This document shows, piece after piece, positions 12,036 through 46,560 of a stretch of DNA of 46,645 nt. Position 1 is the first letter of the stretch. Each line of letters opens with the position of its first letter. This DNA is from Rubrivivax sp. (GTDB lineage: Bacteria > Pseudomonadota > Gammaproteobacteria > Burkholderiales > Burkholderiaceae_C), in NCBI GenBank assembly GCA_020848515.1, contig JADLIA010000030.1, positions 1 to 46,645 on the forward strand, read 5' to 3'. The translations under genes and the position numbers were made by a program. Under the pieces are notes generated by a model, which did no database searches, was not told where the DNA came from, and saw only the letters and a program-made list of their open reading frames with translations.

Positions 12036-12068
12036 TACTCCAAAATCAATAGCATGTGGCGCACGCCC
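12036..12068 (+). repeat. Dispersed ATAGC repeat, truncated copy A (secG leader)
   Basis: The plus-strand reading TTACTCC-AAAATCAATAGC-ATGTGGCGC matches the left half of the family (ACTCCTATTTTGATAGCTGCTGGCGC). The right half is lost at the tpiA 3' end. Its CTCC, read on the minus strand as GGAG, is the apparent secG ribosome site. Confidence 0.6.
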
Positions 12069-12069
12069 G

Positions 12070-12822
12070 TCATGCGGCGGCGGCCACGATGGTCAGGAAA
12101 TCCGGGGCCTTGAGGGCGGCGCCCCCGATCAGCCCGCCGTCGATGTCGGGCTGCGCCAGCAGCTCGGCGGCGTTGCCCGCGTTCATGCTGCCCCCGTAGA
12201 GGATGCGCACGTGTTCGGCCTGGGCACCGGCGGCGCGCAGTTGCGCACGCAGCACCGCATGCACGCTCTGCGCCTGCGCCGGCGTGGCGGTCTGGCCGGT
12301 ACCGATGGCCCACACGGGTTCATAGGCGACCACGGTTTCATTGATGGCGTGACCGTTGAGATGGAGCACCGCCGACAGCTGGCGCTTGACGATGAATTCG
12401 GTCAGGCCCTCTTCGCGCTCGCGCAGCGTCTCGCCGACGCAGACGATGGGCGTGATGCCGGCCGCCAGCGCACGCCTGACCTTGAGCGCCACCTGCAGGT
12501 CGGTCTCGCCCTGGTGCTGGCGCCGTTCGCTGTGGCCCACGATGGCGTAGCGCACGCCGAAGTCTTTCAGCATGGTGGCCGAGACGTCACCGGTGAAGGC
12601 ACCGCCTTCGTGCTGCGACAGGTCCTGCGCGCCCAGCGCAATCGCCGTCTGGCCCGCCAGCAGTTGCTGCAGCTGCCCCAGATAGACCGAGGGCGGGCAC
12701 ACGGCGACGTCGCACGCCGGCTGGCCGACACCCTGGCGCAGCGCCTGCACCAGCGCCTGGTTGGCCGCCAGACTGCCGTTCATCTTCCAGTTGCCGGCAA
12801 CGAGTTTCTTTCTTTCGCTCAT
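12070..12822 (-). CDS. tpiA: Triosephosphate isomerase
   Basis: A 250-residue TIM-barrel glycolytic enzyme interconverting dihydroxyacetone phosphate and glyceraldehyde 3-phosphate. Active-site residues are all present: N11 and K13 in 'AGNWKMNG', H97 in 'IVGHSERR', E168 in '[12 protein letters not shown]' (with mobile loop 6), and the phosphate loop 'ILYGGSMN'. Length is standard. ATG at 12822 overlaps the stop of the upstream quinone oxidoreductase gene (ATGA), so the two are translationally coupled. Confidence 0.97.
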
Positions 12823-13838
12823 GGTTGGCTCCAGGTCAGCACAAGCTTGCCGATCAGCTGACCGCTTTCCATCAGGGCATGGGCCCGGGCAGCGCCGCTG
12901 GGCAGGCCATCGCCCGCCTCCAGCGCCGGCCATACCTGGTGAATCACCGGCCTGACACGCCCCTGCTCCAGCCACGGCCAGACGCGCTGGCGCAGGGCCT
13001 GCGCAATGGCGGCCTTGAACGCGACCGGGCGTGGCCGCAGGGTGGAGCCGGTGATCGTCAGGCGCCGGCGCAACACCAGACCGGCGTTGAACTGGCTGCG
13101 CGTGCCGCCCTGCACGGCGATGATGACCAGGCGACCGTCTTCGGCCAGGCATTCGACCTCGCGCTGCACGTAGTCGCCCGCCACCATGTCGAGGATGACG
13201 TCGACGCCGCGCCCGCCGGTGAGCTGCAGCGCCTGCTGCGCGAAGTCCTGCGTGCGGTGGTTGATGGCGTGGTCGGCGCCCAGGCGGAGTGCGGCGGCAC
13301 ACTTGTCGTCCGAACCGGCGGTGACGATCACGGTGGCGCCCGCAGCCTTGGCCAGCTGGATGGCGGTGACGCCGATGCCACTGGTGCCGCCCTGCACCAG
13401 CAGGGTTTCGCCGGCCTGCAGGCGCCCGCGGTCGAACACGTTGCTCCAGACAGTGAAAAAGGTTTCCGGCAGCGCCGCCGCCTCGACGTCGGAGCAGCCC
13501 GCAGGCACCGGCAGGCACTGCGCCACCGGGGCCACGCAAACCTCGGCATAGCCGCCACCGGCCACCAGCGCGCACACGCGCTGGCCGAGCTGCAAGCCGG
13601 CCGCAGACAGCGCAGCGGCGTCGCCGGACTCGATCACCCCGGCCACTTCCAGCCCGGGCAGGTCGGACGCACCGGGCGGCGCCGGGTAGTGGCCGGCACG
13701 CTGCAGCACGTCCGGGCGATTGACGCCCGAGGCGCTGACGCGGATCCGCAGCTCACCCGGGCCGGCCTGCGGCAGCGGGCGCTCGGCCGGCACCAGCACG
13801 GCCGGCTCGCCGGGTTCGCGGATCTCGATGCATTTCAT
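12819..13838 (-). CDS. NAD(P)H:quinone oxidoreductase, zinc-free medium-chain (PIG3-like)
   Basis: A 339-residue medium-chain dehydrogenase/reductase of the zeta-crystallin/PIG3 type, expected to reduce quinones or enones with NADPH. Visible are the GroES-like N-terminus ('[22 protein letters not shown]'), the nucleotide-binding '[34 protein letters not shown]', and '[16 protein letters not shown]'. The structural zinc cysteines of alcohol dehydrogenases are absent. Start: ATG at 13838 ([12 protein letters not shown]) fits the family; an in-frame ATG 39 nt upstream lies inside the repeat copy B. That copy's GGAG is 12 nt upstream of the chosen start. The gene overlaps tpiA by 4 bases. The exact substrate is unknown. 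Confidence 0.88.
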
Positions 13839-13840
13839 GG

Positions 13841-13900
13841 CCAGATAGGGCTCCAGCGCTCGTCCGTACTGCGCCAAAAGCTATGCTTTATATAGCAATC
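13841..13900 (-). repeat. Dispersed ATAGC repeat, copy B (pnp/quinone oxidoreductase spacer)
   Basis: The minus-strand reading is TTGCTATATAAAGCATAGC-TTTTGGCGC, then a loop, then GAGCGCTGGAGCC. It begins on the last bases of the pnp stop codon and fills the whole 60-nt spacer, ending 2 nt before the next start codon. It contains the putative ribosome site GGAG (13851-13854). Confidence 0.75.
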
Positions 13901-16181
13901 AGATCTGCGGCGACGGCAGCTCGGGGGCGGCCTCAGGTGCGCCGGCGGCGGGTGCCGGACGCTCTTCGCGCTCACCGCGATCCTCACGCGGCGCACGCTC
14001 CCTGCGCTCGCCACGCTCACCGCGCGGGGGACGATCGCCGCGCGGCGGACGCTCGTCGCTGCCTTCCAGATGCGCCGGGCGCTCCAGCAGCGCCTTCATC
14101 GACAGCTTGATGCGGCCCTTGTCGTCGGTCTCCAGCACCTTGACCTTGACCACCTGGCCTTCCTGCAGGTAGTCGCTGACCTTTTCGACGCGCTCGTGGG
14201 CGATCTGGCTGATGTGCAGCAGGCCGTCCTTGCCGGGCAGGATGTTGACCAGGGCGCCGAACTCCAGCAGCTTGGTGACCGGGCCTTCGTAGACCTTGCC
14301 CACTTCGGCCTCGGCGGTGATCTCCTCGATGCGGCGCCGGGCGTGGTCGGCCTTGGCGGCGTCGGTGCTGGCGATGGTGATGGTGCCGTCCTCGGCGATG
14401 TCGATGGTGGTGCCGGTTTCTTCGGTCAGGGCGCGGATGGTGGCGCCGCCCTTGCCGATCACGTCGCGGATCTTCTCGGGGTTGATCTTCATCGTGTAGA
14501 GCTTGGGCGCGTAGCTCGAGATCTCGGTGCGCGCCTGGCCCATGGCCTCCTGCATCTTGCCCAGGATGTGCATGCGCGCTTCCTTGGCCTGCGCCAGCGC
14601 CACCTGCATGATCTCCTTGGTGATGCCCTGGATCTTGATGTCCATCTGCAGCGCGGTGATGCCGGCGGTGGTGCCGGCCACCTTGAAGTCCATGTCGCCC
14701 AGGTGGTCCTCGTCGCCCAGGATGTCGGTGAGCACGGCGAACTTGTTGTCTTCCTTGATCAGGCCCATGGCGATGCCGGCCACGTGCGCCTTCATGGGTA
14801 CGCCGGCGTCCATCAGCGACAGGCAGCCACCGCACACCGAGGCCATCGAGCTGGAGCCGTTGGATTCGGTGATCTCGCTCACCACGCGGATGGTGTAGGG
14901 GAACTCATCCTTGGCTGGCAGCAGCGGGATCAGTGCGCGCTTGGCCAGGCGACCGTGGCCGACCTCGCGGCGCTTGGTCGAGCCCATGCGACCCACCTCG
15001 CCCGTGGCAAACGGCGGCATGTTGTAGTGAAACAGGAAGCGGTCCTCGAACTCGCCGGCCAGCGCGTCGATGCGCTGCGCGTCGCGCTCGGTGCCCAGCG
15101 TGGTCACCACCAGGGCCTGCGTCTCGCCACGCGTGAACAGCGCCGAGCCGTGTGTGCGCGGCAGCACACTGTTGCGGATTTCGATCGGGCGCACGGTGCG
15201 CGTGTCGCGGCCGTCGATGCGCGGCTCGCCGGCCAGGATCTGGCCGCGCACGATGCGCGCCTCGATCTCGAACAGCAGGTTGTCGAGCTTGACCGGGTCG
15301 AACGCCACGCCCTGCTCGGTCAGCGCGGCCTTGACGCCGGCATAGGCCTCGCGGCAAGCCTGGGTGCGCGCCTGCTTGCTGCGAATCTGGTAGGCGGCGC
15401 GCAGCGGGCCCTCGGCGGCGGCGTTGACCTGGGCGATGAAGGCTTGGTCCTTGGCTTCCGGCACCCAGGTGCCGTTGTCGGCCCACAGCGGCTTGCCGGC
15501 TTCGCGCACCAGCTCGTGAATGGCGTTGATGGCGATCTGGCCCTGCTGGTGACCGAACACCACGGCGCCCAGCATCACGTCCTCGGACAGTTGATCGGCT
15601 TCGCTTTCCACCATCAGCACGGCGGCCTCGGTGCCAGCCACCACCAGGTCGAGCTGGCTGCTCTTGCGCGCCGTCGGACCCGGGTTGAGCACGTATTCGC
15701 CGTTGATGTAACCGACCCGCGCGGCACCGATCGGGCCGTTGAACGGGATGCCGCTGATCGACAGCGCAGCGCTGACGCCGATCATGGCCGCGATGTCGGC
15801 ATCCACCTCGGGGTTGAGCGAGACGGTGTGGATCACCACATGCACTTCGTTGAAGAAACCTTCGGGGAACAGCGGGCGGATCGGGCGGTCGATCAGGCGG
15901 GACGTCAGCGTCTCCAGCTCGCTCGGCTTGGCCTCGCGCTTGAAGAAGCTGCCCGGGATCTTGCCGGCGGCGTAGGTCTTTTCGATGTAGTCGACCGTCA
16001 GCGGGAAGAAGTCCTGCCCCGGCTTGGCGCTCTTGCTGGCAGCCACGGTGGCCAGAATCACGGTGCCGTCGATGTCGACCAGCACGGCACCGGTGGCCTG
16101 GCGGGCGATCTCGCCGGTTTCCATCACCACCGTCTTGTCGCCCCACTGAAACGACTTGGTGATCTTGTTGAACATGCTCAT
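13899..16181 (-). CDS. pnp: Polyribonucleotide nucleotidyltransferase (PNPase)
   Basis: A 760-residue 3'-5' phosphorolytic exoribonuclease of the RNA degradosome. Two RNase PH domains are present (residues about 14-230 and 315-545; second-core motifs '[14 protein letters not shown]', '[14 protein letters not shown]', 'SDILG'-like '[21 protein letters not shown]'). A KH domain follows ('[22 protein letters not shown]'), then S1 ('[33 protein letters not shown]'). The last 55 or so residues are an Arg/Gly/Glu/Pro-rich disordered tail, so it exceeds the roughly 711-aa E. coli enzyme. ATG at 16181 has GGAG 5 nt upstream, within repeat copy C. It lies downstream of rpsO, as in most proteobacteria. 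Confidence 0.97.
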
Positions 16182-16186
16182 GATTG

Positions 16187-16241
16187 CTCCTATATTGATA
16201 GCTGTTTGCGCTTGCTGCACAAACGTTGGAGCCGGATTTGT
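16187..16241 (+). repeat. Dispersed ATAGC repeat, copy C (pnp leader)
   Basis: The plus-strand reading is CTCCTATATTGATAGCTG-TTTGCGCTTG-loop-CAAACGTTGGAGCC-GGATTTG. It keeps the family layout but with mismatches in the stem. On the minus strand its left end gives GGAG for pnp translation. It lies in the pnp 5' untranslated region, where pnp mRNA is commonly autoregulated. Confidence 0.75.
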
Positions 16242-16314
16242 TTCAGAACACGATGCCATTCCAGAACCTGCCGGTGAAGGACGAAAGGTCGTGGAATGAC
16301 ACAGCTTCAGCTTC

Positions 16315-16384
16315 TGAAAACCCCGCGCTCCGGGTTGAAAAAAGACAAAAACGCCTGAGCCCTGGGAGGCGTCAGGCGTTTGCG
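16315..16384 (-). terminator. Rho-independent terminator downstream of rpsO, with second hairpin
   Basis: On the minus strand, 12 nt after the rpsO stop, AAACGCCTGA (16372-16381) pairs with TCAGGCGTTT (16348-16358 region) around a short GC loop. A T-rich run (16341-16350) follows, giving a strong intrinsic terminator. A weaker second hairpin (AACCC/GGGTT, 16319-16336) followed by TTTTC lies just beyond. Together they should separate rpsO from pnp, leaving partial read-through. Confidence 0.85.
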
Positions 16385-16396
16385 CTCATCACGGGC

Positions 16397-16663
16397 TTAC
16401 TTGCGCAGACCCAGCTTGGCGATCAGGGCCAGGTAGCGGTCGGCGTCCTTGGCCTTCAGGTAGTCCAGCAGCTTGCGACGGCGGCTGACCATGCGCAGCA
16501 GGCCGCGGCGGCCGTGGTGGTCCTTGGCGTGTTCCTTGAAGTGCGGCGTCAGCTCGTTGATGCGCGCCGTCAGCAGCGCCACCTGAACTTCGGGGCTGCC
16601 GGTGTCATTGGCGGCGCGCGCGTTGTCTTTGACCACGGCGGCCTTGTTCTCCTTGGAGATCAT
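16397..16663 (-). CDS. rpsO: 30S ribosomal protein S15
   Basis: An 88-residue primary 16S rRNA-binding protein that nucleates assembly of the 30S platform. The family core is unmistakable: '[24 protein letters not shown]', '[24 protein letters not shown]' and the C-terminal 'LIAKLGLRK'. ATG at 16663 has GAGG 8 nt upstream and gives standard length. The gene precedes pnp, the usual proteobacterial order, with a terminator between. Confidence 0.98.
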
Positions 16664-16745
16664 CTCAATGTCCTCGTTCCAAAGGGTTTGACTTGCGTGG
16701 CGCACCGGAACTGCACGCCACGTGCGCTCTGCAACACGCAAAGCC

Positions 16746-16760
16746 TTGAAATTATAGCGC
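16746..16760 (-). promoter_or_regulatory. Probable rpsO promoter -10 (TATAAT)
   Basis: The minus strand reads CGCTATAATTTC, a perfect -10 hexamer at 16751-16756, about 88 nt upstream of the rpsO start and just beyond the rhodanese stop. I could not find a good -35 at 16-18 nt, so the call rests on the -10 and position. Confidence 0.5.
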
Positions 16761-16798
16761 GGTCAGCACCCTGCCCGCACCCTACTGGTACCGGCGAC

Positions 16799-17356
16799 TC
16801 AGTTGCCGGGCTGGCGGTCGACGCGGTACACCTTGCCCGGACTCATCTTGGCGCTCCAGGGCAGGCCACTGTTTTGCCAGCCGTTCTGGATGCGCAGGCC
16901 GGCCTGCGGCCCGTCCTTGAGCGCCGCGCCCTGAAAGCCGTTGATCACGTAGCGCGCGTTCGGCAGGCCGTTTTCGCGCAGCAGACGCGCGCTGGGCTCA
17001 CCGCGCTCACTGCCCGAGCGGCACAGGGTGATGACCTCGGCATCCATGCCCATGCCGCGGCGCGCCAGCTCGGCCTTGATCTGCGCCACGAAATCGGGGT
17101 TCGGGTAGAGCCGGAATATCCCGCGCTGCTCGTCCCATTTCGAGCGGTCCACCATCATGAACGGGATGTTGGTGTGCACCACATCGGTGAAGCCAATGAA
17201 CATGATTTCCACCGGGTCGCGCACGTCGACGAACAGCACACCCGGGGCATTGCTCTGCACCTTTTCATACGCCTCGCGGGCTGAAATGCCCGTCTCCACG
17301 GCCCCGGCGGACCAGCCGGCCAGCCCCAGCGCCACCGCGATCAGCAGCTTCTTCAT
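16799..17356 (-). CDS. Secreted (periplasmic) rhodanese-like protein
   Basis: A 185-residue protein with a clear Sec signal peptide (MKKLLIAVALGLAGWSAGAVE, cleavage near residue 19) and one rhodanese domain. It contains 'GVLFVDVRDPVEIMFIGF' and the active-site loop with C112 (LCRSGSERGEPSARLL), then 'YVINGFQGA'. It would be a periplasmic single-domain sulfurtransferase or persulfide carrier; the acceptor is unknown. ATG at 17356 is preceded by GGAG at 8 nt. It stands alone between speE (103 nt upstream) and rpsO and has its own promoter-like region with two palindromes. Confidence 0.88.
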   Translation of the reverse strand: MKKLLIAVALGLAGWSAGAVETGISAREAYEKVQSNAPGVLFVDVRDPVEIMFIGFTDVVHTNIPFMMVDRSKWDEQRGIFRLYPNPDFVAQIKAELARRGMGMDAEVITLCRSGSERGEPSARLLRENGLPNARYVINGFQGAALKDGPQAGLRIQNGWQNSGLPWSAKMSPGKVYRVDRQPGN

Positions 17357-17382
17357 CGCATGGACTCCACAAGTTGACGAGG

Positions 17383-17417
17383 GTCGTATGCTACGACTGT
17401 TTGCGCAATTACGCAAA
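17383..17417 (-). promoter_or_regulatory. Putative rhodanese-gene promoter overlapped by two palindromes
   Basis: On the minus strand TTGCGT (17411-17416) and TAGCAT (17388-17393) are 17 nt apart. Two perfect inverted repeats cover them: TTTGCG-N6-CGCAAA (17400-17405/17412-17417) over the -35, and GTCGTA-N3-TACGAC (17383-17388/17392-17397) over the -10. The ATG follows about 30 nt later with GGAG. An operator role is inferred; no cognate regulator is nearby. Confidence 0.5.
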
Positions 17418-17459
17418 TTGTAGAATTTCGCCCGCGACCGACACCGCTGCGGGCGCGGC

Positions 17460-18431: not shown

Positions 18432-18871
18432 GCGCGCACGACGCGGTGCAGATGCGGATCGGCCGGCTGAAAGGCCTGCATCAAGGCGTCGAACAGGCGC
18501 TCGGCCTTGGCAGAGTTGTCGTTGGTGTAGCTGCACACGTACACGTCGAGCGTGACGTAGTTGTCTTCGGGCCAGGTGTGCAGGGCCAGGTGCGACTCGG
18601 CCAGCACCACGGCCCCGGTCACGCCCTCGCCTTCACCAAAGCTGTGAAACAGGCTGCCCACCGTGGTCAGGCCGGCGTCGGCCACGGCCTGCTTGCAAAA
18701 GGCCTCCAGCGTGGCGGCGTCGGTCATCAGTCGGGTGTCGCCACGACAGCCGTACAGATCGCCAATCAGATGCAGACCGGGCGCCATGCGCGCAACCGCA
18801 TGCGCGCTGCGCAGCGTGGCGCCTGAGGCAACCACGGGGGTGGGGGAATCGGTGTGAGGCAGAACGCGCAT
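18428..18871 (-). CDS. speD: S-adenosylmethionine decarboxylase proenzyme
   Basis: A 147-residue, pyruvoyl-dependent SAM decarboxylase of the small prokaryotic class. The self-processing site is visible as 'VLAESHLALHTWPEDNY': cleavage before S93 would create the pyruvoyl group, with H98 nearby and C113 in the 'YVCSY' strand. It supplies decarboxylated SAM to SpeE, with which it overlaps by 4 bases. ATG at 18871 has GGAG 7 nt upstream; the longer open frame upstream is non-coding spacer. Confidence 0.92.
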   Translation of the reverse strand: MRVLPHTDSPTPVVASGATLRSAHAVARMAPGLHLIGDLYGCRGDTRLMTDAATLEAFCKQAVADAGLTTVGSLFHSFGEGEGVTGAVVLAESHLALHTWPEDNYVTLDVYVCSYTNDNSAKAERLFDALMQAFQPADPHLHRVVRA

Positions 18872-19064: not shown

Positions 19065-19128
19065 TAACCTAGCAGTTTAATGCCTTTGTCGGCCGAAGGC
19101 AAACCTGCTGCACCAAAGGCTGCCCTGT

Positions 19129-19833
19129 TCAAGCCGACAGGTAGCGCTGCATCAGGGACCGCTGGTCGCGCAGTTCCTCGGAGCTGCCGCTCCAGGCCAC
19201 CTGGCCCTTCTCGACGATGTGGTGGCGCTCAGCCAGTTCCAGCAACGGCGCCAGGTTCTTGTCGACCACCAGAATCGCCATGCCTTCGGCCTTGATCTGT
19301 CGCAGCGCAAGCCAGATCTCACGCCGCACCAGGGGCGACAACCCTTCCGTGGCCTCGTCCAGGATGAGCAACTCAGGGTTGGTCATCAGAGCACGTCCAA
19401 TGGCCAGCATCTGCTGCTCGCCGCCGGACAGCTGGTTGCCGAAGTTGGACGCCCGTTCGGCCAGGCGGGGAAACAGCGCGTGCACCCGCGCCAGCGTCCA
19501 GGCATGGGACGAACCGCCGCCGCGCCCGGTGGCCACCAGGTTCTCGCGCACGGTGAGGTTGGGAAACACCTGCCGGCCTTCCGGCACCAGGCCCAGGCCG
19601 AGCCGCGCCATCGCATGGGGGGGGCGCCCCTGGACGGTGCGCCCCTTCCAGCGCACCACGCCGCCCCATGGGCGCAGAAGCCCCATGATGGTCTTGATGG
19701 TGGTGGTCTTGCCCATGCCGTTGCGCCCCAGCAAGGTGACGCATTGACCGGGTGCCACCGCCAGGCCGATGTCGAACAGCACCTGGCTCTGACCGTAGCC
19801 GGCGGCAAGGCCTTCCACCTCAAGCAGGTTCAC
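19129..19833 (-). CDS. livF: ABC transporter ATP-binding protein, LivF type
   Basis: A 234-residue ATPase of a branched-chain-amino-acid-type (HAAT family) importer. Walker A is GRNGMGKTT, the Q-loop region 'LGLVPEGRQVFPNLTVRENL' is typical of LivF, the signature is LSGGEQQMLAIGRAL, and Walker B is LLILDEATEGL. The start is GTG at 19833, overlapping the livG stop by 4 bases. It is the last gene of the transporter operon. Confidence 0.94.
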   Translation of the reverse strand: MNLLEVEGLAAGYGQSQVLFDIGLAVAPGQCVTLLGRNGMGKTTTIKTIMGLLRPWGGVVRWKGRTVQGRPPHAMARLGLGLVPEGRQVFPNLTVRENLVATGRGGGSSHAWTLARVHALFPRLAERASNFGNQLSGGEQQMLAIGRALMTNPELLILDEATEGLSPLVRREIWLALRQIKAEGMAILVVDKNLAPLLELAERHHIVEKGQVAWSGSSEELRDQRSLMQRYLSA

Positions 19834-20594
19834 GCCGGAATCTCCTCGTCGCCCAGATAGGCTTCCCGCACCAGTGGGTGCGCCTTGACGGTCGCAGGGT
19901 CACCGCAGCAGATGACCTTGCCGTGAAACAGCACGCTGATGCGATCGGCCAGGGCAAACACCGCCCCCATGTCGTGCTCGACCAGCAGAATGCCGTACTG
20001 CCCCTTCAGGCGCTGCAACAGAGCCACCAGTTGCGACGATTCGACCGCCCCCATGCCCGCCATGGGCTCGTCCAGCAGCAACACGCTGGGCTGCATGGCC
20101 AGAGCCATGGCCATTTCGAGCTGGCGTTGCTGACCGTAGGCGAGCGCCGCCGCATGGACATCACGCTGCGCACTCAGCCCGACCCGCTCGATCACCTCAT
20201 CGGCACGCTCCACCAGTTCAGCCGTATCGCTGGCCGGTCGCCAGAAATGGAAGGCATGACCCAGGCAGCCCTGCACCGCAAGAATCACGTTTTCCAGCAC
20301 GGTGAAAGCGCCGATGACCGAGGTGATCTGATAGGAGCGCCCAAGGCCCGCGCGGGCGCGCTCGGGCACGCTCAGTCCGTCGATGGACTGCCCCTGCAGC
20401 CGGATGCTGCCCTCGTCGCTGGCCACCTCTCCCACGATCTGGCCGATCAGGGTGGTCTTGCCTGCGCCATTGGGGCCGATGATGGCATGCACCTCGCCTG
20501 GCAGCACGTCCAGATCCACATGATCGGTCACCAGCAAGCCACCGTAGCGCTTGACCAGACCCCGCAGGCTCAGCAAGGGCTGCGACTGCGTCAC
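19830..20594 (-). CDS. livG: ABC transporter ATP-binding protein, LivG type
   Basis: A 254-residue partner ATPase. Walker A is GPNGAGKTT, the signature region is 'LAYGQQRQLEMAMALAMQP' (a divergent but normal LivG form), Walker B is LLLDEPMAGM, and the LivG C-terminus 'LVREAYLGDE' is present. The start is GTG at 20594, one base after the livM stop, with a purine-rich GGGAGGG upstream. It overlaps livF by 4 bases. Confidence 0.94.
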   Translation of the reverse strand: MTQSQPLLSLRGLVKRYGGLLVTDHVDLDVLPGEVHAIIGPNGAGKTTLIGQIVGEVASDEGSIRLQGQSIDGLSVPERARAGLGRSYQITSVIGAFTVLENVILAVQGCLGHAFHFWRPASDTAELVERADEVIERVGLSAQRDVHAAALAYGQQRQLEMAMALAMQPSVLLLDEPMAGMGAVESSQLVALLQRLKGQYGILLVEHDMGAVFALADRISVLFHGKVICCGDPATVKAHPLVREAYLGDEEIPA

Positions 20595-31770: not shown

Positions 31771-31828
31771 AACTCCTGAATGCATAGCTGCTGGCGCTTG
31801 CCCAGCAAGCGCCGGAGCCATTTTTTAT
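31771..31828 (+). repeat. Dispersed ATAGC repeat, copy D (near-ideal hairpin with T run)
   Basis: AACTCCTGAATGCATAGCTG is followed by CTGGCGCTTG-CCCAG-CAAGCGCCGG, then AGCC and six T. The 10-bp stem (one G-T pair) plus T run looks like an intrinsic terminator for the small secreted-protein gene that ends 14 bp upstream. It is the best reference copy of the family in this window. Confidence 0.8.
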
Positions 31829-32539: not shown

Positions 32540-32595
32540 CAACGATAGCTGCCGGCGCTTGCCCAGCAAGCGCCAGAGCCCGATTTGATATTGAT
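32540..32595 (+). repeat. Dispersed ATAGC repeat, copy E (convergent spacer)
   Basis: It reads CGATAGCTGCCGGCGCTTG-CCCAG-CAAGCGCCAGAGCCC-GATTTGATATTG. The perfect 8-bp GGCGCTTG/CAAGCGCC stem is preserved. It sits in the 293-bp spacer between the convergent comJ-like and htrA genes. The rest of that spacer (32368-32539, 32596-32660) holds no supportable gene. Confidence 0.8.
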
Positions 32596-34250: not shown

Positions 34251-34306
34251 TACTATGATTTCAATAGCTTTTGGCGCTTGTCTGGCGTGCTCTGGATGCC
34301 TAAAAC
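34251..34306 (+). repeat. Dispersed ATAGC repeat, copy F (degenerate)
   Basis: It reads TACTATGATTTCAATAGCTT, TTGGCGCTTG, then a diverged right arm (GGCGTGCTCTGGATGCC). It keeps the CTAT..ATAG and GGCGCTTG left parts, but the stem is largely lost. It lies between the sensor kinase stop (34311) and the htrA start (34151), on the opposite strand to both genes. Confidence 0.6.
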
Positions 34307-34310: not shown

Positions 34311-35711
34311 TCAGTCCTCAGGCCCGGCGGCGGCCGGCCAGATCACCGCCAGCCGCGCCCCGCCCAGGCGCGGCGAGGCTTGCACCACCACCTGCGCGCC
34401 ATGCCGACGTGCCACCGCCTGCACGATCGCCAGGCCCAGGCCGCTGCCGTGGCCGGCGGCGCCCGGCACACGGTAGAAGCGGTCGAGCACGCGCTGGCGC
34501 TCGGCCGCTGGGATGCCGGGGCCGCTGTCTTCCACCGCCAGCTCGGCCACGCCGTCGGGCCGACGCTGCACCGCCACGCACACCTGCCCGCCCGCCGGCG
34601 TGTGGCGCAAGGCGTTGTCGATCAGGTTGCGCAGCAGCACCGCCAGCGCCTGCGGCCGGGCGTCCAGCCACAGCGACGCATCACCTTCCAGCCGCAGGGC
34701 GATGCCGCGCGCCTGCGCCTCGGCGTCGGCCTCCTGCAGCGCCTGGCGCGCCAGCACGGGCAGATCGACCGGCTCGCGCACCGCGTCCGCATCGCCATCG
34801 TGGCGTGCCAGCGCCAGCAACTGCTCGACCAGGCGCGTGGCGCGATCGACCCCGGCCAGCAGCCGCCCGGTGGCCACGGCGCGCGCCTGCTCGGTGTCGG
34901 CGCGCTGCAGGCTCTGCACCTGCAGGCGCAGTGCGGCCAGCGGTGAGCGCAGCTCGTGCGCGGCGTCGGCGGTGAAGTCGGCCAGTTGCTGCCAGGCGGC
35001 CGCCAGGCGCGCCAGCAGCCCGTTCATCCCGGTCACCAGCGGCAACACCTCGGCCGGCAGACCGCCAGTCGGCAACGGTGCCAGGTCGGCGGCACCACGC
35101 GCGGCCAACTGGCGGCGCAGGCGCTCGATCGGCGCCAGCGCGCGCCCCACCACCCACCACACGATCAGCATCAGCAGCGGCGCCAGCAGCGCCACCGGCA
35201 GCACCGCGCGCAGCGCCAGCTGGCCGGCGATGCGCCGGCGCGCGCGCTCGGCCTGCGCGATCTGGATCACCTGGCTGGGTGTCTCCAGCGCGTACACGCG
35301 CCAGTCCTCGTCGCCGGCGCGCAGGTGGGAAAAGCCGATCACCGTCTGCGGCGGCAGCAGCCGCGCCGAGGGCGAGCGGTACAGCATGATGCCGTCGGCG
35401 CGCCAGACCTGGATGATCAGCTCCTCGGCGCCGCGCGTGGCCGCCAGCGCGTCGTCGCCCAGCACGCTGGCAGCCAGGCCGCCGGTGAGCGACAGCGCGA
35501 TGCGCTCCATCTGCGCATCGAACACCGCCTCGGTCTCGGCCAGCGCCGTGCGCCAGGTGATGGCCGCCTGCAGCGCCGCCGTCAGCAGCACCGCCAGCAG
35601 CAGCAGCGCCGTCAGGCGGGCGCGCAGCGAAGGGGCCGGCGTCTTCAAGTGTTTTTGGCTCTCAGCGCTTGATGGACTTACGCTGGCAGCTTCCATTCCA
35701 GGAGCACTCAT
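34311..35711 (-). CDS. Two-component sensor histidine kinase (QseC/PmrB-like)
   Basis: A 466-residue inner-membrane kinase. TM1 is at about residues 33-53, a periplasmic sensor of about 110 residues follows, TM2 is at about 167-190, HAMP at about 190-243, and the dimerisation domain has phospho-acceptor H252 (TADAAHELRSPLAALRLQ). The HATPase has the N box 'NLIDNALRHTP', 'DSGPGI' and 'GSGLGLAIVQAV'. ATG at 35711 overlaps the response-regulator stop. Residues about 3-22 are encoded by repeat copy G, so the cytoplasmic N-terminal tail is probably repeat-derived. The stimulus is unknown; the HtrA and cation-antiporter neighbours suggest envelope or ionic stress. Confidence 0.93.
   Translation of the reverse strand: MSAPGMEAASVSPSSAESQKHLKTPAPSLRARLTALLLLAVLLTAALQAAITWRTALAETEAVFDAQMERIALSLTGGLAASVLGDDALAATRGAEELIIQVWRADGIMLYRSPSARLLPPQTVIGFSHLRAGDEDWRVYALETPSQVIQIAQAERARRRIAGQLALRAVLPVALLAPLLMLIVWWVVGRALAPIERLRRQLAARGAADLAPLPTGGLPAEVLPLVTGMNGLLARLAAAWQQLADFTADAAHELRSPLAALRLQVQSLQRADTEQARAVATGRLLAGVDRATRLVEQLLALARHDGDADAVREPVDLPVLARQALQEADAEAQARGIALRLEGDASLWLDARPQALAVLLRNLIDNALRHTPAGGQVCVAVQRRPDGVAELAVEDSGPGIPAAERQRVLDRFYRVPGAAGHGSGLGLAIVQAVARRHGAQVVVQASPRLGGARLAVIWPAAAGPED
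35647..35706 (-). repeat. Dispersed ATAGC repeat, copy G (inside sensor-kinase CDS)
   Basis: The minus-strand reading is GCTCCTGGAATGGAAGCTG-CCAGCGTAAG-loop-AAGCGCTGAGAGCC-AAAAACA. The layout matches the family although ATAGCTG has become GAAGCTG. The copy is translated as about residues 3-22 of the kinase (PGMEAASVSPSSAESQK region). Confidence 0.65.
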
Positions 35712-36418: not shown

Positions 36419-36475
36419 AAAACTCCTATTTTGATAGCTTCTGGCGCTTGTCCCACAAGCGCCCAAGCCATGAAT
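36419..36475 (+). repeat. Dispersed ATAGC repeat, copy H (divergent spacer)
   Basis: AAAACTCCTATTTTGATAGC is followed by TTCTGGCGCTTG-TCCCA-CAAGCGCCCAAGCC. It is a near-consensus left end with an intact GGCGCTTG/CAAGCGCC stem. It fills much of the 172-bp divergent spacer between the response regulator and the antiporter operon. Confidence 0.8.
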
Positions 36476-41585: not shown

Positions 41586-42073
41586 GACGCTGGCTGCCCG
41601 CACCGCTGCTGACGGCGGCGCTGATCCTGCTGTGGCTGGTGCTGAACCGGCCGTTCAGCCTGGGACAGCTGCCGCTGGCGCTGCTGTTCGGCGTGGCGGC
41701 GCCGGCGCTGCTGGCACCGCTGCGCCCGGCGCGCCCGCGGATACGGCACCCGCTGAAGGTGCTGCGACTGATCCTGACCGTGGGTCACGACGTGTTGGTG
41801 TCGAGCCTGGACGTGTTCTGGACCCTGGTGCGCAACCACAGCCGACCCGTCCACAGCCGCTTCGTCGTGATTCCGCTGACGCTGCGCGACCCTACCGCGC
41901 TGGCCTCGCTCACCATGATCACCACCGTGGTGCCCGGCACCGTCTGGTGCGAACTGGCGCGCGACTGCAGCGCCATGCTGCTGCACGTGTGGCATGTGCC
42001 CGATGAGGCCGAATTCGTCGCCTTCTTCAAACGACGCTACGAACAACCGCTGAAGGAGATCTTCGAGTCATGA
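41582..42073 (+). CDS. phaE: Cation/H+ antiporter subunit E (MrpE/PhaE)
   Basis: A 163-residue subunit with two N-terminal helices and a cytoplasmic domain. Family signature parts are 'KVLRLILTVGHDVLVSSLDVFWTLV', 'SRFVVIPLTLRDPTALASLTMITTVVPGTVWCEL' and 'EAEFVAFFKRRYEQPLKEIFE'. It overlaps phaD (ATGA at 41582-41585) and phaF by 4 bases each. Confidence 0.94.
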   Translation: MRRWLPAPLLTAALILLWLVLNRPFSLGQLPLALLFGVAAPALLAPLRPARPRIRHPLKVLRLILTVGHDVLVSSLDVFWTLVRNHSRPVHSRFVVIPLTLRDPTALASLTMITTVVPGTVWCELARDCSAMLLHVWHVPDEAEFVAFFKRRYEQPLKEIFES

Positions 42074-42348
42074 GCCCCCTGCTCTCCGGCGCGCTGGCCC
42101 TGACGCTGGGTGCCTACGCCGTCGCCATGCTGATCGCCCTGTGGCGCGTGCTGCGCGGCCCGACGGCACAGGACCGCGTGCTGGCGCTGGACATGATCTA
42201 CGTCATCGCCATGCTGATCATGCTGGTGCTGGGCATCCGCCACGCCAGCGACCTGTATTTCGAGGCCGCCCTGCTGATCGCCCTGTTCGGTTTCGTCGGT
42301 TCGGCGGCGATGGCCAAGTTCCTGCTGCGCGGCGAGGTGATCGAATGA
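42070..42348 (+). CDS. phaF: Cation/H+ antiporter subunit F (MrpF/PhaF)
   Basis: A 92-residue, three-helix subunit with the family's 'LWRVLRGPTAQDRVLALDMIYVIAMLIMLVLG' and 'YFEAALLIALFGFVGSAAMAKFL'. It has 4-base overlaps with phaE and phaG. Length is as expected. Confidence 0.95.
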   Translation: MSPLLSGALALTLGAYAVAMLIALWRVLRGPTAQDRVLALDMIYVIAMLIMLVLGIRHASDLYFEAALLIALFGFVGSAAMAKFLLRGEVIE

Positions 42349-42713
42349 GCGCCGACGCCCTGCCGCAATGGCTGCAGTGGCTGATCGCCGGCCTGCTGCT
42401 GGCCAGCGGCGTGTTCGCTCTGGCGGCCGCCTGGGGCCTGGTGCGGCTGTCCAGCTTCTACCAGCGCATGCACCCACCGGCCCTGGTGTACGTGGGCTCC
42501 TCCTGGTGCGTGACCCTGGCTTCGATCCTGTTCTTTTCGGGCCAGCAGCAGGGGCCGCAACTGCACGTGTGGATCATCATCATCCTGTTGTCCATCACGG
42601 TGCCGATCACCACCGTGCTGCTGAGCCGCGCGGCGCTGTTTCGCCACCGCGTCGCCGGCCGCACCGACGTGCCGGAGGCACTGCGGCCGCAGGCACCGGC
42701 GCCACAGGACTGA
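42345..42713 (+). CDS. phaG: Cation/H+ antiporter subunit G (MrpG/PhaG)
   Basis: A 122-residue, three-helix subunit with 'GVFALAAAWGLVRLSSFYQRMHPPALV', the typical MrpG 'RMHxP' element, and 'VPITTVLLSRAALFR'. It ends the operon, completing all seven Mrp functions in six genes. The frame is open upstream, but ATG at 42345 (overlap ATGA) fits the family. The 99-bp spacer downstream is mostly repeat copy I. Confidence 0.94.
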   Translation: MSADALPQWLQWLIAGLLLASGVFALAAAWGLVRLSSFYQRMHPPALVYVGSSWCVTLASILFFSGQQQGPQLHVWIIIILLSITVPITTVLLSRAALFRHRVAGRTDVPEALRPQAPAPQD

Positions 42714-42760
42714 ACCGGCGGGTGCCCCACACCCCCTTTTGGCGATCAGACATCGAATCG

Positions 42761-42814
42761 CCGCTCAGCGCTTGTTCAAACTGCGCCAACAGCTATATTC
42801 CTGATAGCAAATTC
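42761..42814 (-). repeat. Dispersed ATAGC repeat, copy I (phaG/acyl-CoA synthetase convergent spacer)
   Basis: The minus-strand reading is ATTTGCTATCAGGAATATAGC, TGTTGGCGC, loop, AAGCGCTGAGC. It begins immediately at the stop codon of the acyl-CoA synthetase gene, as copy B does at the pnp stop. The GCGC core stem is kept through wobble pairs. Confidence 0.75.
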
Positions 42815-44456
42815 AGACATCGATCGCCGCGGCCGAACCCGCCTGTTTGCGCAGCTCGAACTTCTGGATCTTGCCGGTGCTGGTCTTGGGCAGCTCACCG
42901 AACACGATGGCGCGTGGCACTTTGAAGCCGGCCAGGTGCTGCTTGCAGTGCGCCACGATGTCGGCTTCGCTGACCTCGGCACCGGGTTTGAGCTCAAGAA
43001 AGGCGCAAGGCGTTTCGCCCCACTTCGGGTCGGGCTTGGCGACCACCGCCGCGGCCAGCACGGCGGGGTGGCGGTACAGCACGTCTTCGACCTCGATGGA
43101 AGAGATGTTCTCGCCGCCCGAAATGATGATGTCCTTGCTGCGGTCCTTGATCTTGATGTAGCCGTCGGGGTACTGCACCGCCAGGTCGCCGCTGTGGAAC
43201 CAGCCGCCACGGAAGGCTTCCTCGGTGGCACCGGGGTTCTTCAGGTAGCCCTTCATGGCGATGTTGCCGCGGAACATGATTTCGCCCATGGTTTCGCCGT
43301 CCATCGGCACCGGCTGCAGGGTCTCGGGGTCGAGCACGCGCGCGTCGCGCTGCAGGTGGTAGCGCACGCCCTGGCGCGCGTTCAGCGCCGCGCGCTCGCC
43401 AATAGCCAGTTGCTCCCACGCCTCGTGCTTGGCGCACACGGTGGCCGGGCCATAAACCTCGGTCAGGCCGTAGACGTGGGTCAGATCGAACCCCAGGCGC
43501 TCCATGCCCTCGATCATCGAGGCCGGCGGCGCCGCGCCCGCCACCATGCATTTGACGCCGCTGGGCACACCGGCCTTCAGCTCGTCCGGTGCGTTGACCA
43601 GCAGGCCGTGCACGATGGGCGCGCCGCAGTAGTGCGTCACGCCATGCTGGCGGATGGCGTCGAAGATCGCCCGCGCCTCGACCCGGCGCAGGCACACGTT
43701 CACACCGGCGCGCGCCGCCACCGTCCACGGAAAGCACCAGCCGTTGCAGTGGAACATCGGCAGCGTCCACAGATAGACCGCGTGCTTGGGCATGTCCCAT
43801 TCCAAGATGTTGCTGATGGCATTGATGGCCGCGCCGCGGTGGTGGTAGACCACGCCCTTGGGGTTGCCGGTGGTGCCGCTGGTGTAGTTGAGCGCGATGG
43901 CGTCCCACTCGTCGCCCGGATAGTCCCACTCGAAGCCGGCGTCGCCCTGCGCCACGAAGGCCTCGTAGCCGATGCTGCCGATCGGCTGCCCCGGGCCGTA
44001 CAGCGCGTCCTCGACGTCGATCACCAGCAGCGGCGCCTTCGACTGGCGCAGCGCCAGCGCCTTCTTCATGATGCCCGCGAACTCGGGGTCGACGATGACC
44101 GCCTTGGCCTCGCCGTGGTCCAGCATGAAGGCCACCGCCTCGGGGTCGAGCCGGGTGTTGAGCGTGTTGAGCACGGCGCCGGCCATCGGCACGCCGAAAT
44201 GCGCCTCGACCATGGGCGGGGTGTTGGGCAGCATCACGGCCACGGTGTCGTTCCTGCCGATGCCGTGCCTCTGCAGGCTGCTGGCCAGCTGGCGACAGCG
44301 CGCATAGGTCTGGCCCCAGCTCTGGCGCAGCTCGCCATGCACGATGGCCAGGCGGCCCGGATACAGCTCGGCCGTGCGCTGGATGAAGGCCAGCGGCGTC
44401 AGTGCAGCATGGTTGGCCGGGTTGCGAGGCAGATCGGTGTCGAAGATGCTGGGCAT
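42813..44456 (-). CDS. AMP-binding acyl-CoA synthetase (fatty-acid/short- to medium-chain type)
   Basis: A 547-residue ANL-superfamily ligase forming an acyl-AMP and then an acyl-CoA. Motifs are the P-loop YTSGTTGNPKG, 'VYGLTEVYGPATVC', the hinge region 'YPDGYIKIKDRSKDIIISGGENISS', and catalytic Lys in 'PKTSTGKIQKFELR'. The closest group by memory is the AlkK/FadK-like set ('TLPMFHCNGWCFPW', 'GAPIVHGLLVNAPDELK'). ATG at 44456 has AGGAG 6 nt upstream. It is a stand-alone gene, convergent with the antiporter operon and divergent from dnaG. Chain-length preference is not evident. Confidence 0.9.
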   Translation of the reverse strand: MPSIFDTDLPRNPANHAALTPLAFIQRTAELYPGRLAIVHGELRQSWGQTYARCRQLASSLQRHGIGRNDTVAVMLPNTPPMVEAHFGVPMAGAVLNTLNTRLDPEAVAFMLDHGEAKAVIVDPEFAGIMKKALALRQSKAPLLVIDVEDALYGPGQPIGSIGYEAFVAQGDAGFEWDYPGDEWDAIALNYTSGTTGNPKGVVYHHRGAAINAISNILEWDMPKHAVYLWTLPMFHCNGWCFPWTVAARAGVNVCLRRVEARAIFDAIRQHGVTHYCGAPIVHGLLVNAPDELKAGVPSGVKCMVAGAAPPASMIEGMERLGFDLTHVYGLTEVYGPATVCAKHEAWEQLAIGERAALNARQGVRYHLQRDARVLDPETLQPVPMDGETMGEIMFRGNIAMKGYLKNPGATEEAFRGGWFHSGDLAVQYPDGYIKIKDRSKDIIISGGENISSIEVEDVLYRHPAVLAAAVVAKPDPKWGETPCAFLELKPGAEVSEADIVAHCKQHLAGFKVPRAIVFGELPKTSTGKIQKFELRKQAGSAAAIDV

Positions 44457-44588
44457 GCCTGTCTCCTGGAAAGGGAACGCGCGGGGGCGGGACGCCCGAT
44501 CATAGTCAGCGGCCTGACGGGCAGCTGGCGCCGGTCCCGTGCCTGCCCGGAACCCCGCAGCGCGCGGCACGTCGATCGGCTCGATCGC

Positions 44589-44618
44589 CTGACGTCCCCG
44601 AGATGGCCCGGGCAAAAT
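44589..44618 (+). promoter_or_regulatory. Candidate dnaG promoter giving a nearly leaderless mRNA
   Basis: CTGACG (44589-44594) and CAAAAT (44613-44618) are separated by 18 nt. The start point would fall 6-7 nt later, at or next to the GTG start codon at 44625. No ribosome site precedes that GTG, which is consistent with a leaderless transcript. The hexamers are imperfect. Confidence 0.35.
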
Positions 44619-44624
44619 AGCCTC

Positions 44625-46439
44625 GTGGCCATTCCGCAGCACTTTCTCCAGGAGCTCCTGGCGCGCGCCGACATCGTCGAGATCGTCGGCCGCTACGTGC
44701 CGCTCAAGAAGACCGGCGCCAATTTTTCCGGCCTGTGTCCGTTCCATGGCGAAAAGACGCCGTCGTTCACCGTCAGCCCGTCCAAGCAGTTCTACCACTG
44801 CTTCGGCTGCGGCAAGAACGGCAACGCCATCGGCTTTCTGATGGACCACACCGGCGCCGGCTTCGTCGAGACGGTGCACGAACTGGCCCAGCAATACGGC
44901 CTGCAGGTGCCCGAGGACGAACGCAGCCCGGCCGAGCGCGCCCGCGCCGCCGAGCAGACCGAGCAGCGCGCCAGCCTGACCGACGTGCTGGCCCGCGCCG
45001 CCGACGCCTGGCGCAAGCAGCTCAAGGCCTCGCCACGAGCCATCGACTACCTCAAGCGGCGCGGCCTGTCGGGCCAGGTGGCGCGCCAGTTCGGCCTGGG
45101 CTACGCGCCCGAGGGCTGGCGCGGCCTGGCCAGCGTGTTCCCGGACTACGCCGACCCCCTGCTGGTGGAAAGCGGGCTGGTCATCGTGTCGGAGGACGAC
45201 GAAGGCAAGCGCTACGACCGTTTCCGCGATCGCATCATGTTCCCCATCCGCTCGGTCAAGGGCGAAGTGATCGGCTTCGGTGGCCGCGTGCTGGGCGACG
45301 ATAAGCCCAAATACCTGAACTCTCCCGAAACCCCGGTGTTTCACAAGGGCCGCGAGTTGTACGGCCTGTTCGAAGCGCGCACCGCGCTGCGCGAGCAGGG
45401 CTACGCGCTGGTGGTGGAAGGCTACATGGACGTGGTGGCGCTGGCGCAGCAGGGCCTGGGAAACGCCGTCGCCACCCTGGGCACAGCCTGCACGCCCGAG
45501 CACGTGCACAAGCTGTTTCGCTTCACCGACCACGTCGTGTTCAGCTTCGACGGCGACGCCGCCGGCCGACGCGCGGCCCACAAGGCGCTGGAAGCCGCCC
45601 TGCCCCTGGCCACCGACACCCGCAGCGTGAAGTTCCTGTTTCTGCCGCCCGAGCACGACCCCGACAGCTTCGTGCGTGCCGAGGGGGTCGAGGCCTTCGC
45701 CCAGGCGGTGCGTGACGCCGTGCCGCTGTCGCGCTTCCTGCTGGACGCGGCGGCCGAGGACTGCGACCTGCAGACCGCCGAAGGCCGCTCGCGCTTCGCG
45801 GCCCGGGCCCGGCCACTGTGGCAGTTGCTGCCCGCGGGGGCGCTGGCGGCACAGCTGCTGGGCGACATCGCCGCGCAGGTGCAGATCGGCACGCACGAGC
45901 TGGAGCAACTGTGGGGCTTGCGTCGGATGCCCCGAGGACGATATGAAAATGATAGCAATTCGCGCGCATCCCATAAGGCAAGAGAGCCGAAAACACCCAC
46001 AAGACCCGTGGCCGTCCGGCACGCCCCGCGGCGCGCGCCCTCGCCGCGCGCCAGCCGTGCCCTGCAGATCGTGCTGACCGAGCCGAGCGCCTGGGACCGC
46101 CTGACACAAAGCGATCAGCACCTGCTGTGCGACCTGCCGGCGCCCCTGGGCGCGCTGTTCACCTGGCTGGCCGGCCAGCACCTGGAGTACGGCCCTCAGC
46201 CGTGGAGCGCGCTGCGCGAAGCCCTGCGCGGACACCCGCAAGAGGCCTTCGCCGTCGAGCTGCTGGAGCGCCTGCCGCCCGACATCGAGAGCGACGCCGA
46301 GGAGCTGTCGCGCATCCTGGCGCTGGAGCACGACGCCCGCTACGCCGCCGAGCGGCAGCGCCTGGCCGCCGACGCGGCTGCCGGAGACACCGCCGCCTAC
46401 GCCCGGTTGCGTGAAATGCCGGTCACCCGCCCGCGCTGA
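44625..46439 (+). CDS. dnaG: DNA primase
   Basis: A 604-residue replication primase. The CHC2 zinc finger has C38-x2-H41 and C59-x2-C62 ('LCPFHGEKTPSF', 'YHCFGCGKNGNAI'). The RNA polymerase core has 'RFRDRIMFPI' and 'GGRVLGDDKPKYLNSPETPVFHKG'. The TOPRIM metal residues are E in 'VVEGYMDVVAL' and DxD in 'FSFDGDAAGRRAA'. A C-terminal helicase-binding domain spans about 480-604. Residues about 440-457 in the linker are encoded by repeat copy J. GTG at 44625 begins the conserved N-terminus (MAIPQHFLQELL); no Shine-Dalgarno is seen. Confidence 0.96.
   Translation: MAIPQHFLQELLARADIVEIVGRYVPLKKTGANFSGLCPFHGEKTPSFTVSPSKQFYHCFGCGKNGNAIGFLMDHTGAGFVETVHELAQQYGLQVPEDERSPAERARAAEQTEQRASLTDVLARAADAWRKQLKASPRAIDYLKRRGLSGQVARQFGLGYAPEGWRGLASVFPDYADPLLVESGLVIVSEDDEGKRYDRFRDRIMFPIRSVKGEVIGFGGRVLGDDKPKYLNSPETPVFHKGRELYGLFEARTALREQGYALVVEGYMDVVALAQQGLGNAVATLGTACTPEHVHKLFRFTDHVVFSFDGDAAGRRAAHKALEAALPLATDTRSVKFLFLPPEHDPDSFVRAEGVEAFAQAVRDAVPLSRFLLDAAAEDCDLQTAEGRSRFAARARPLWQLLPAGALAAQLLGDIAAQVQIGTHELEQLWGLRRMPRGRYENDSNSRASHKAREPKTPTRPVAVRHAPRRAPSPRASRALQIVLTEPSAWDRLTQSDQHLLCDLPAPLGALFTWLAGQHLEYGPQPWSALREALRGHPQEAFAVELLERLPPDIESDAEELSRILALEHDARYAAERQRLAADAAAGDTAAYARLREMPVTRPR
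45941..45995 (+). repeat. Dispersed ATAGC repeat, copy J (inside dnaG)
   Basis: ATATGAAAATGATAGC, AATTCGCGC, loop, AAGGCAAGAGAGCC, GAAAACA match the family order GATAGC / GCGC / loop / GC / GAGCC / A-T-rich tail. It is translated in frame as residues about 440-457 of DnaG (YENDSNSRASHKAREPK), a hydrophilic linker segment. Confidence 0.7.
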
Positions 46440-46494
46440 ACCGACCCACTCCCCACCGACGGCGGGCGCGGCGGCGTCGCCAATCCCTTGGGGA

Positions 46495-46519
46495 CCTTGA
46501 AATGGGTCCTTGAAATGGG
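46495..46519 (+). repeat. Tandem repeat of CCTTGAAATGGG, two copies
   Basis: Identical 12-mers at 46495-46506 and 46508-46519 (13-bp period) sit just upstream of the terminal promoter. Each contains TTGAAA, usable as a -35, and CTTGAA, which also resembles a sigma-32 -35. Confidence 0.7.
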
Positions 46520-46536
46520 GCGGATCGTGCTATAAT
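46510..46536 (+). promoter_or_regulatory. Strong sigma-70 promoter after dnaG, probably for rpoD
   Basis: TTGAAA (46510-46515) lies 15 nt before a perfect TATAAT (46531-46536) with an extended TGC element (46528-46530), which can compensate for the short spacer. A sigma-70 gene normally follows dnaG; it would lie beyond the window. The -10 is part of repeat copy K. Confidence 0.7.
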
Positions 46537-46560
46537 TAATAGCTTGTCACTGGCAAGAGC
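46527..46560 (+). repeat. Dispersed ATAGC repeat, copy K (forms the promoter -10)
   Basis: GTGCTATAATTAATAGCTTG, TCACTGGC, AAGAGC resembles the TTGCTAT-N-ATAGCT form of the family seen in copies B and I, with a shortened right arm. The palindrome GCTAT..ATAGC has here become a TATAAT box. Confidence 0.55.

Follow-up and report, generated by a model that had tools for sequence, protein, structure and literature searches.

A dispersed, modular palindrome of Comamonadaceae genomes as a candidate DNA recognition site at gene ends

Two motifs described in 2017 (PMC5217627) are the closest published counterparts of the element that we report here from a 46,645-nucleotide stretch of Rubrivivax sp. 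DNA (contig JADLIA010000030.1; the window), an imperfect palindrome dispersed mainly between genes. Both were put forward as potential novel motifs: ATAGCT(N)22CAAAAG has 125 copies in Polaromonas naphthalenivorans CJ2, and GCTTAT(N)5AAGCG has 114 copies in Acidovorax ebreus TPSY, 107 of them intergenic (44 in convergent, 4 in divergent, and 59 in co-oriented spacers). Both resemble our element in having the ATAGCT core or the same kind of hairpin, more than 100 copies, and a mostly intergenic location with many convergent and few divergent cases; in the accessible text of that paper, however, they are statistical motifs with their function left open, reported as two unconnected motifs without a family, a modular structure, orthology, or lineage modules. 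Both fit the element well and agree with it in their spacer statistics; from their letters we infer that they probably belong to the family described here. The literature that we searched, mostly without subscription journals and preprints, held no matching description beyond these two motifs.

DNA uptake sequences are short motifs of about 10–12 bp, and those of Neisseria and the Pasteurellaceae (in the latter, uptake signal sequences, USS) occur as dispersed copies with lineage dialects; our element is likewise dispersed and has such dialects but is longer, is modular, and avoids divergent spacers. Repetitive extragenic palindromic (REP) sequences, their doublets and clusters (bacterial interspersed mosaic elements, BIMEs), and the REP-associated tyrosine transposases (RAYTs) offer another comparison. 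As presented in the accessible part of PMC2817692, REPs are imperfect palindromes that are numerous outside genes and carry a 4-nt head; our element resembles them in this, and a copy or remnant of it often lies just after a RAYT gene. Of the properties by which REPs are defined, our element has the more than 100 extragenic copies but neither the near-identical copies nor, in the Rubrivivax genome, the doublets and clusters; it also lacks stem covariation within a genome, and the RAYT genes are mostly bounded by another palindrome. The beta-proteobacterial repeat element (BRE), which has been counted in Comamonadaceae genomes, is given in the accessible part of PMC3110155 as ~90 bp long, 69% GC, often tandem, and present in at most 29 copies; compared by description only, it shares with our element that it is a dispersed repeat in Comamonadaceae and differs in length, GC content, tandem habit, and copy number.

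The repeats form a genuine family. Contig C30, which is the window, belongs to a 186-contig, 2.48-Mb draft genome (G000) that is 77% complete, and in 740 kb of this genome (the window and 39 other stretches) an iterated nhmmer model gave 195 matches at E<0.01, or 179 elements once self-matches on the opposite strand were merged (~2.4 per 10 kb), while the same 740 kb reversed gave no profile match up to E=1. With at most one mismatch, the 17-mer ATAGCTNNTNGCGCTTG occurs 259 times in the whole genome versus twice for a control read backwards; with at most three mismatches, it occurs 12 times in the window versus an expected mean of 3.2. The dispersed family proposed in an initial annotation of the window thus stands far above chance, and its occurrence in both orientations, mainly between genes, and in the Comamonadaceae part of the family of the Genome Taxonomy Database (GTDB) was likewise confirmed. 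We suggest a model, plausible but tentative, whereby each element is a ~65-bp double-stranded DNA recognition site for a putative trans-acting factor. In our model, the constant left palindrome RCTAY-N7-RTAGCT would be the anchor site, followed by a central module with lineage-specific letters (GCGCTTG-N5-CAAGCGC in this genus) and by the right flank GGAGCC..ATTT; a DNA-binding protein would read the elements, with a specificity that shifted between lineages, and would act at gene ends throughout the chromosome, more probably in gene-boundary or nucleoid organisation than in DNA uptake.

With the A of ATAGCT taken as position 0, the conserved stretch of the 179 elements runs from about −16 to +53 and comprises RCTAY (−12 to −8) followed by an A/T-rich gap, RTAGCT (0 to 5), a first GCGC (10–13) followed by a variable loop, a second GCGC (25–28), GGAGCC (~30–35), ATTT (38–41), and AA (49–50). 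This agrees with the layout drawn from the window alone in the initial annotation (CTCCT or GCTAT, A/T run, ATAGCTG, GGCGCTTG, loop, CAAGCGC, GGAGCC, A/T run). There are two palindromes, one of 17 bp formed by RCTAY with RTAGC and the other GCGCTTG-N5-CAAGCGC, the latter being clear in this genus and weak in G064. Position 0 is A in 82% and G in 17% of the elements, giving a head that is mostly ATAG, as compared with the GT(A/G)G head of REPs. Eight core letters (positions 2–5 and 10–13) are conserved at 89–100% in seven genomes of six genera, in which C at −11 reaches 85–94% and T at −10 reaches 71–97%. To avoid selecting for an intact core, we also searched with half-models, one half finding a copy and the other half being scored. 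The right half alone picked up 41 copies, of which all have A2, G3, C4, G10, C11, and G12 and 40 have T5 and C13, with positions 8, 16, and 20 matching in just 26–30; in the 57 picked up by the left half alone, GCG at 10–12 is present in all 57 and the letters at 10–13 in 56–57.

The copies are singletons of limited similarity. No pair exceeds 77% identity over 70 nt in any of seven genomes (26–179 elements each), and a 36-copy subsample from G000 has a median best identity of 0.79, with 19% at or above 0.85, versus 0.96 over 36 nt and 94% for 36 REP copies from 200 kb of Escherichia coli K-12 treated by the same method. Neighbouring E. coli REPs lie closer than 200 bp in 16 of 32 cases; in G000, by contrast, only 9 of 139 gaps between elements are below 1 kb (32 expected), and none of the 117 occupied spacers holds two elements, whereas random placement (2000 draws) doubly occupies 18.5 spacers in the mean and at least nine in every draw. 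Close inverted pairs occur elsewhere, a few in G299 and one in the G015 stretches. Spacer and context counts rest on gene calls made with a codon-position prior: 117 of the 179 elements lie in spacers of at least 60 bp, 51 have their midpoints within called genes (some of these genes probably having been called too long), and the other 11 are in spacers below 60 bp or at the ends of stretches. Of the spacers that reach 60 bp, an element is present in 81 of the 218 that are tandem, in 28 of the 64 that are convergent, and in 8 of the 82 that are divergent, a depletion of divergent spacers with a Fisher p of 4e-6 against convergent and 1e-6 against tandem spacers. Orientation relative to transcription is 41:40 in tandem spacers, element strand against local GC skew is 193:224, and density varies from 0.8 to 3.1 per 10 kb across sampled blocks of 54–100 kb. 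This is not an active repeat family, and there is no sign of recent copying.

Comparison with the sister genome G015 adds a time scale. For 25 G015 elements, both flanks have syntenic counterparts in the G000 stretches; at 13 of these places G000 carries an element too, each time in the same orientation. At ten core letters (the eight above plus −11 and −10), these ortholog pairs are identical in 129 of 130 comparisons versus 96% for unrelated copies, and at the other letters 56% are identical versus 41%. The 13 shared copies are older than the split between the two genomes, and their core has been kept. Upkeep by gene conversion was considered and rejected, since it would homogenise the free letters too, and those are not homogenised. 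One such letter, at position 9, is G in 71% of G000 copies; in G015 C and T dominate (C 55%, G 5%), and in G283 A reaches 71%. At the 13 ortholog pairs this position is the same in two, versus 15% between unrelated copies.

The left palindrome GCTAYNNNNNNNRTAGC is more than twice as frequent as its control in 29 of 110 genomes of the GTDB family (up to 708 versus 61) and lies above control in three more; in most of the others it is far below. A stricter form, GCTATNNNWNNNATAGC, occurs 70–314 times versus 0–1 in the control in all of ten genomes picked for enrichment, and the central modules in its surroundings differ between genera. One 20-mer central module has 593 copies in G064 and 0–1 in each of 13 other genomes; for another module pattern, the counts are 351 and 163 in two genomes of one genus (g20), 3 in a third, and no more than 2 in each of 13 others. 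The 20-mer is exact in many G064 copies while their flanks vary (ten loci, drawn from exact matches).

Nine of the eleven copies that the initial annotation placed in the window stand, eight by profile and one, G, by way of orthologous spacers. Copy A (12038–12085, plus strand; nhmmer E 7e-6) lies between a minus-strand tpiA-like gene (12070–12822), the 3′ end of which it overlaps, and a secG-like gene, also on the minus strand (11586–12029; gene names assigned by eye); its spacer has matches in 4 of 13 other species (G015, G301, G146, G310), and the ACTCC..ATAGC part was seen by eye in more. Copy B (13845–13896, minus strand; E 7e-11) is directly downstream of a pnp-like gene, in a spacer for which six other species give matches at E<0.001, and copy C (16186–16240, plus strand; E 3e-11) is in the rpsO-pnp spacer immediately upstream of the pnp start. 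Tandem spacers hold copies D (31773–31825, plus strand; E 2e-12) and F (34252–34301, plus strand; E 2e-8), the spacer of the latter having no match in six other species examined. Copies E (32541–32587, plus strand; E 9e-12) and I (42757–42807, minus strand; E 1e-5) are in convergent spacers, and copy H (36423–36469, plus strand; E 5e-9) is in a divergent one with matches in G015, G321, G301, and, weakly, G315 and none in G230, G312, G146, and G323. Copy G (35657–35705, minus strand) gives a weak match (E 0.19); because seven of eight other species examined carry an element in the same spacer (E 2e-10 to 1e-2), it is most likely a worn copy. For the remaining two, J (45941) and K (46527), there is no profile match at E≤1, leaving them unsupported; at the place of K (46527–46560), TATAAT is seen by eye with TTGAAA 15 bp upstream, closer than is usual in sigma-70 promoters. 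No profile match fell in the nuo operon. In spacer 35 of four species (G015, G321, G312, G315) we saw another, GC-rich repeat (GGCCGCGGAGCAGGC.. and GGGGGGAAG.CGCCGCAGGCGACTCAGGGGGG, whole or in part), which is possibly the published BRE. The initial repeat listing for the window was mostly coding similarity, and Rfam 15 covariance models run over the window at E≤5 gave four matches, none at any repeat copy. A sub-threshold ZMP/ZTP riboswitch match within a gene (13118–13249, minus strand; 31.4 bits versus a gathering score of 39) is probably due to chance.

Two leader copies stand out by their persistence. An element at E≤0.1 occupies the position of copy C, the pnp leader, in 10 of 13 other members of the genus and is worn in G303, G316, and G323, and the copy in the secG leader persists across the genus in the same way. 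By eye, many pnp leaders of Variovorax, Acidovorax, and Comamonas show a similar CTCCT..TTGATAGC..hairpin..GGAG layout, and the pnp leader shows several apparently matched stem changes across species; both copies may have been co-opted to structure these leaders. An alignment that mixed copy B of G000 with pnp-leader copies of other genomes was left out of account. That CTCCT, read on the opposite strand, acts as a Shine-Dalgarno sequence (AGGAG), as the position of these two copies just before the starts might indicate, was rejected as a general explanation, 9 of 12 intergenic CTCC-type copies facing the stop codon of the neighbouring gene. In six Variovorax genomes (L182, L197, L203, L208, L221, L222; ~19,300–20,400, minus strand), a mostly complete GCTAT..ATAGC palindrome lies, apparently at the same place, upstream of TGGCACG-N4-TTGC, which we take to be a sigma-54-like sequence.

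The initial annotation had proposed that pairing in the stem is kept by compensating changes. Within G000 this fails by the refuting condition that the annotation itself had set, the stem partners varying independently: the 121 copies that keep both GCGC arms give 847 cells at seven variable stem pairs, of which 512 are paired versus 508.6 (sd 8.3) with shuffled partners, a number reached in 176 of 500 shuffles, and the strongest couplings are between neighbouring letters. The second GCGC arm is conserved in G000 at 81–89% versus 98–100% for the first and is 74% identical between orthologs versus 73% between unrelated copies. On folding, copies D, E, and H lie well below their shuffles (z −4.1 to −5.1), whereas copies C and F do no better than theirs (z −0.1 and 0.5). 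The G064 module had been judged non-palindromic by eye; folding of five G064 copies (z −2.3 to 1.6) gave a weak hairpin in some, and that judgement was dropped.

Across genomes, the 17-mer has at least 20 matches in 38 of the 299 genomes of the GTDB family, and outside the family the exact pattern has one match in each of 2 of 243 genomes. Within the genus, the 29 genomes counted (several being incomplete) have between 0 and 647 matches, and the element is near-absent in some sister species. On a pnp protein tree of 25 genus genomes and five outgroups, high-copy and low-copy genomes are clustered, with four changes, two of which are forced by well-supported branches; three low-copy members group with these outgroups, and the genus is thus not monophyletic on this tree.

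The Y1_Tnp domain of RAYTs is present in 221 of the 299 genomes (PF01797 profile). From this profile, RAYTs appeared to be lacking in six high-copy genomes; a RAYT protein query found full-length relatives that the profile had missed in four of these (G000, G095, G196, G141), only a partial match in G256, and no match at E≤1 in G270, a genome of one contig with 155 17-mer matches and an intact core. In none of 21 RAYT neighbourhoods are strong profile matches close by on both sides, and on a first view no RAYT adjoins an element; re-reading of the flanks overturned this view, as taken up below. By profile, a downstream copy is found at E<0.01 (within 100 nt) in G120 alone, with G146 at E 0.014 and G072 at E 0.038. 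The RAYT of G190 has a strong copy ~160 nt upstream too, in opposite orientation, that of G146 has one ~0.7 kb upstream, and that of G000 has no element beside it. By eye, 18 of the 21 neighbourhoods (L081–L100, L325) show a different palindrome, of AATTGGGGTCAGA..CCAATT type, on one side or both, in most cases beyond the element remnant. This AATTGGGGTCAGATTCCAATT-type palindrome is possibly the cognate REP of the RAYT, and it goes with a conserved GATGTGTCCC stretch and often an element remnant just past the stop.

The properties of the elements fit what would be expected of sites read by a protein: a dyad anchor, a fixed core interspersed with free letters, indifference to strand, regular spacing, and letters that depend on the lineage. 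In G000, they are singletons, old, mainly intergenic, and rare in divergent spacers, with eight core letters nearly invariant while the intervening letters drift. Several observations nevertheless weigh against recognition sites. The element holds 55.7 bits of information over 70 positions, which is long for a plain protein site. The ortholog pairs required a profile match in both genomes, favouring intact cores, and unrelated copies are already 96% identical in these letters, an ascertainment problem that the half-model test answers only in part. Turnover is real, as 12 of the 25 syntenic G015 elements have no match in G000; two of these 12 make up one inverted pair and one rests on weak flank matches, and among the G000 spacers opposite them two look by eye like worn copies and most are without trace. 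The position-9 shift was noticed post hoc, from the tables. When seven genomes are pooled, 1004 of 1610 cells are paired versus 967 (sd 11) with shuffled partners, a number that none of 500 shuffles reaches (in G283 and G270 alone, pairing is marginal, at 22 and 30 of 500 shuffles); this excess arises because consensus letters differ between lineages, and it is weak evidence that the symmetry has been kept over long times. Finally, on re-reading by eye, a reversed element copy or remnant lies within ~60 nt after the RAYT stop in 14 of the 21 neighbourhoods, and such remnants occur in 13 of 14 genomes with at least 22 17-mer matches (G128 being doubtful) and in 1 of 7 with at most two. The remnant looks like the left end of the element, AGCTAT-N-TTTGATGTGTCCC, and lies between the RAYT stop and the RAYT's own palindrome.

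These flanks bear most directly on the idea, possible but doubtful, that the elements are REP-like and non-autonomous and were moved, perhaps long ago, by RAYTs, with the module of each lineage following its RAYT. They raise it and lower both recognition sites and the genome tags considered next, and it draws further on an RTAG head (ATAG/GTAG-like) directly before an imperfect palindrome, on abundance outside genes, on RAYT genes being common in the family, on the second, upstream copy in G190, and on the coevolution of RAYTs and REPs known from the accessible part of PMC2817692. Adjacency to a gene is common for this element anyway (37–44% of non-divergent spacers are occupied in G000), and although 14 of 21 exceeds this baseline, shared descent makes the cases dependent, so that the adjacency is suggestive. 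Movement by RAYTs also sits poorly with the lack of near-identical copies and of doubly occupied spacers, unlike in E. coli REPs, with the single E<0.01 match close after a RAYT, with the other palindrome type beside 18 of 21 RAYTs, with the bare flanks of the G000 RAYT, and with G270, which has many elements and no RAYT match. Transposition and site reading could both have taken part in sequence, RAYTs best explaining the first origin of the copies and reading by a factor their upkeep. A wider form of site reading, which we likewise hold to be possible yet doubtful, is a family-wide genome-tag system, in which the constant palindromic anchor would carry a swappable, lineage-specific module of ~20 bp that is replaced at hundreds of loci in step with a fast-evolving reader; this reader would be either a novel DNA-binding protein or a RAYT that has become resident, with about one tag per non-promoter spacer.

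The other explanations seem less probable. That the elements are DNA uptake sequences with lineage dialects, kept through biased uptake in natural transformation, would account for the lack of strand bias, the more even than random spacing, the lineage-specific letters, the near-absence in some sister species, and the lack of young duplicates; we consider it unlikely because the element, from about −16 to +53, is far longer than known uptake sequences and because these would not be expected to avoid divergent spacers. An element acting at the RNA level, as a hairpin in mRNA leaders or 3′ ends, is suggested by the folding of copies D, E, and H and by the pnp and secG leaders, which persist across the genus, with apparent matched stem changes in the former; the balanced orientation in tandem spacers, the independence of stem partners within a genome, and the poor folding of copies C and F and of the five G064 copies make such a role improbable for the family. 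Functionless relics that a mobile element left behind in an old burst, and that decay neutrally, would be old, as the copies are, and would leave counts that differ among genomes and cluster on the pnp tree; neutral decay, however, would not leave eight letters at 89–100% beside letters at background, and we regard this explanation as very improbable.

Matches outside chromosomes led to a protein family. Phage records gave no match to the element, and among 72,556 plasmids 32 match, 26 of them inside a DUF1010 gene; the two such plasmid loci that we inspected are class 1 integron cassettes. In all eight DUF1010 (PF06231) loci examined (six chromosomal and two plasmid cassettes; L231 1352–1597, L232 1051–1296, L234–L239), the element lies inside the reading frame, and the DUF1010 peptide core ASSAC.AS.TSY is a reverse-strand translation of it. 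The element is not the attC of the cassette, as in L231 it lies at 1496–1538, inside the DUF1010 frame (1352–1597) and not at the cassette end. Chromosomal DUF1010 clusters in Comamonadaceae resemble cassette arrays; the cassette frames hold a copy of the element but as a passenger, unlike its dispersed chromosomal form. DUF1010 may not be an ordinary protein family, and caution is due where its peptide core appears in databases, as in the eight loci examined this core is a translated copy of the element.

If recognition sites are what these elements are, then a feature that ranks among the most abundant non-coding ones in many genomes of the Comamonadaceae would be a DNA site under selection and not the debris of transposition, and a putative DNA-reading system acting at hundreds of gene ends would still be to be found. 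The lineage-specific modules would then offer a natural experiment in the coevolution of a factor and its site, and the comparison of high-copy with low-copy sister species would provide a direct route to the factor.

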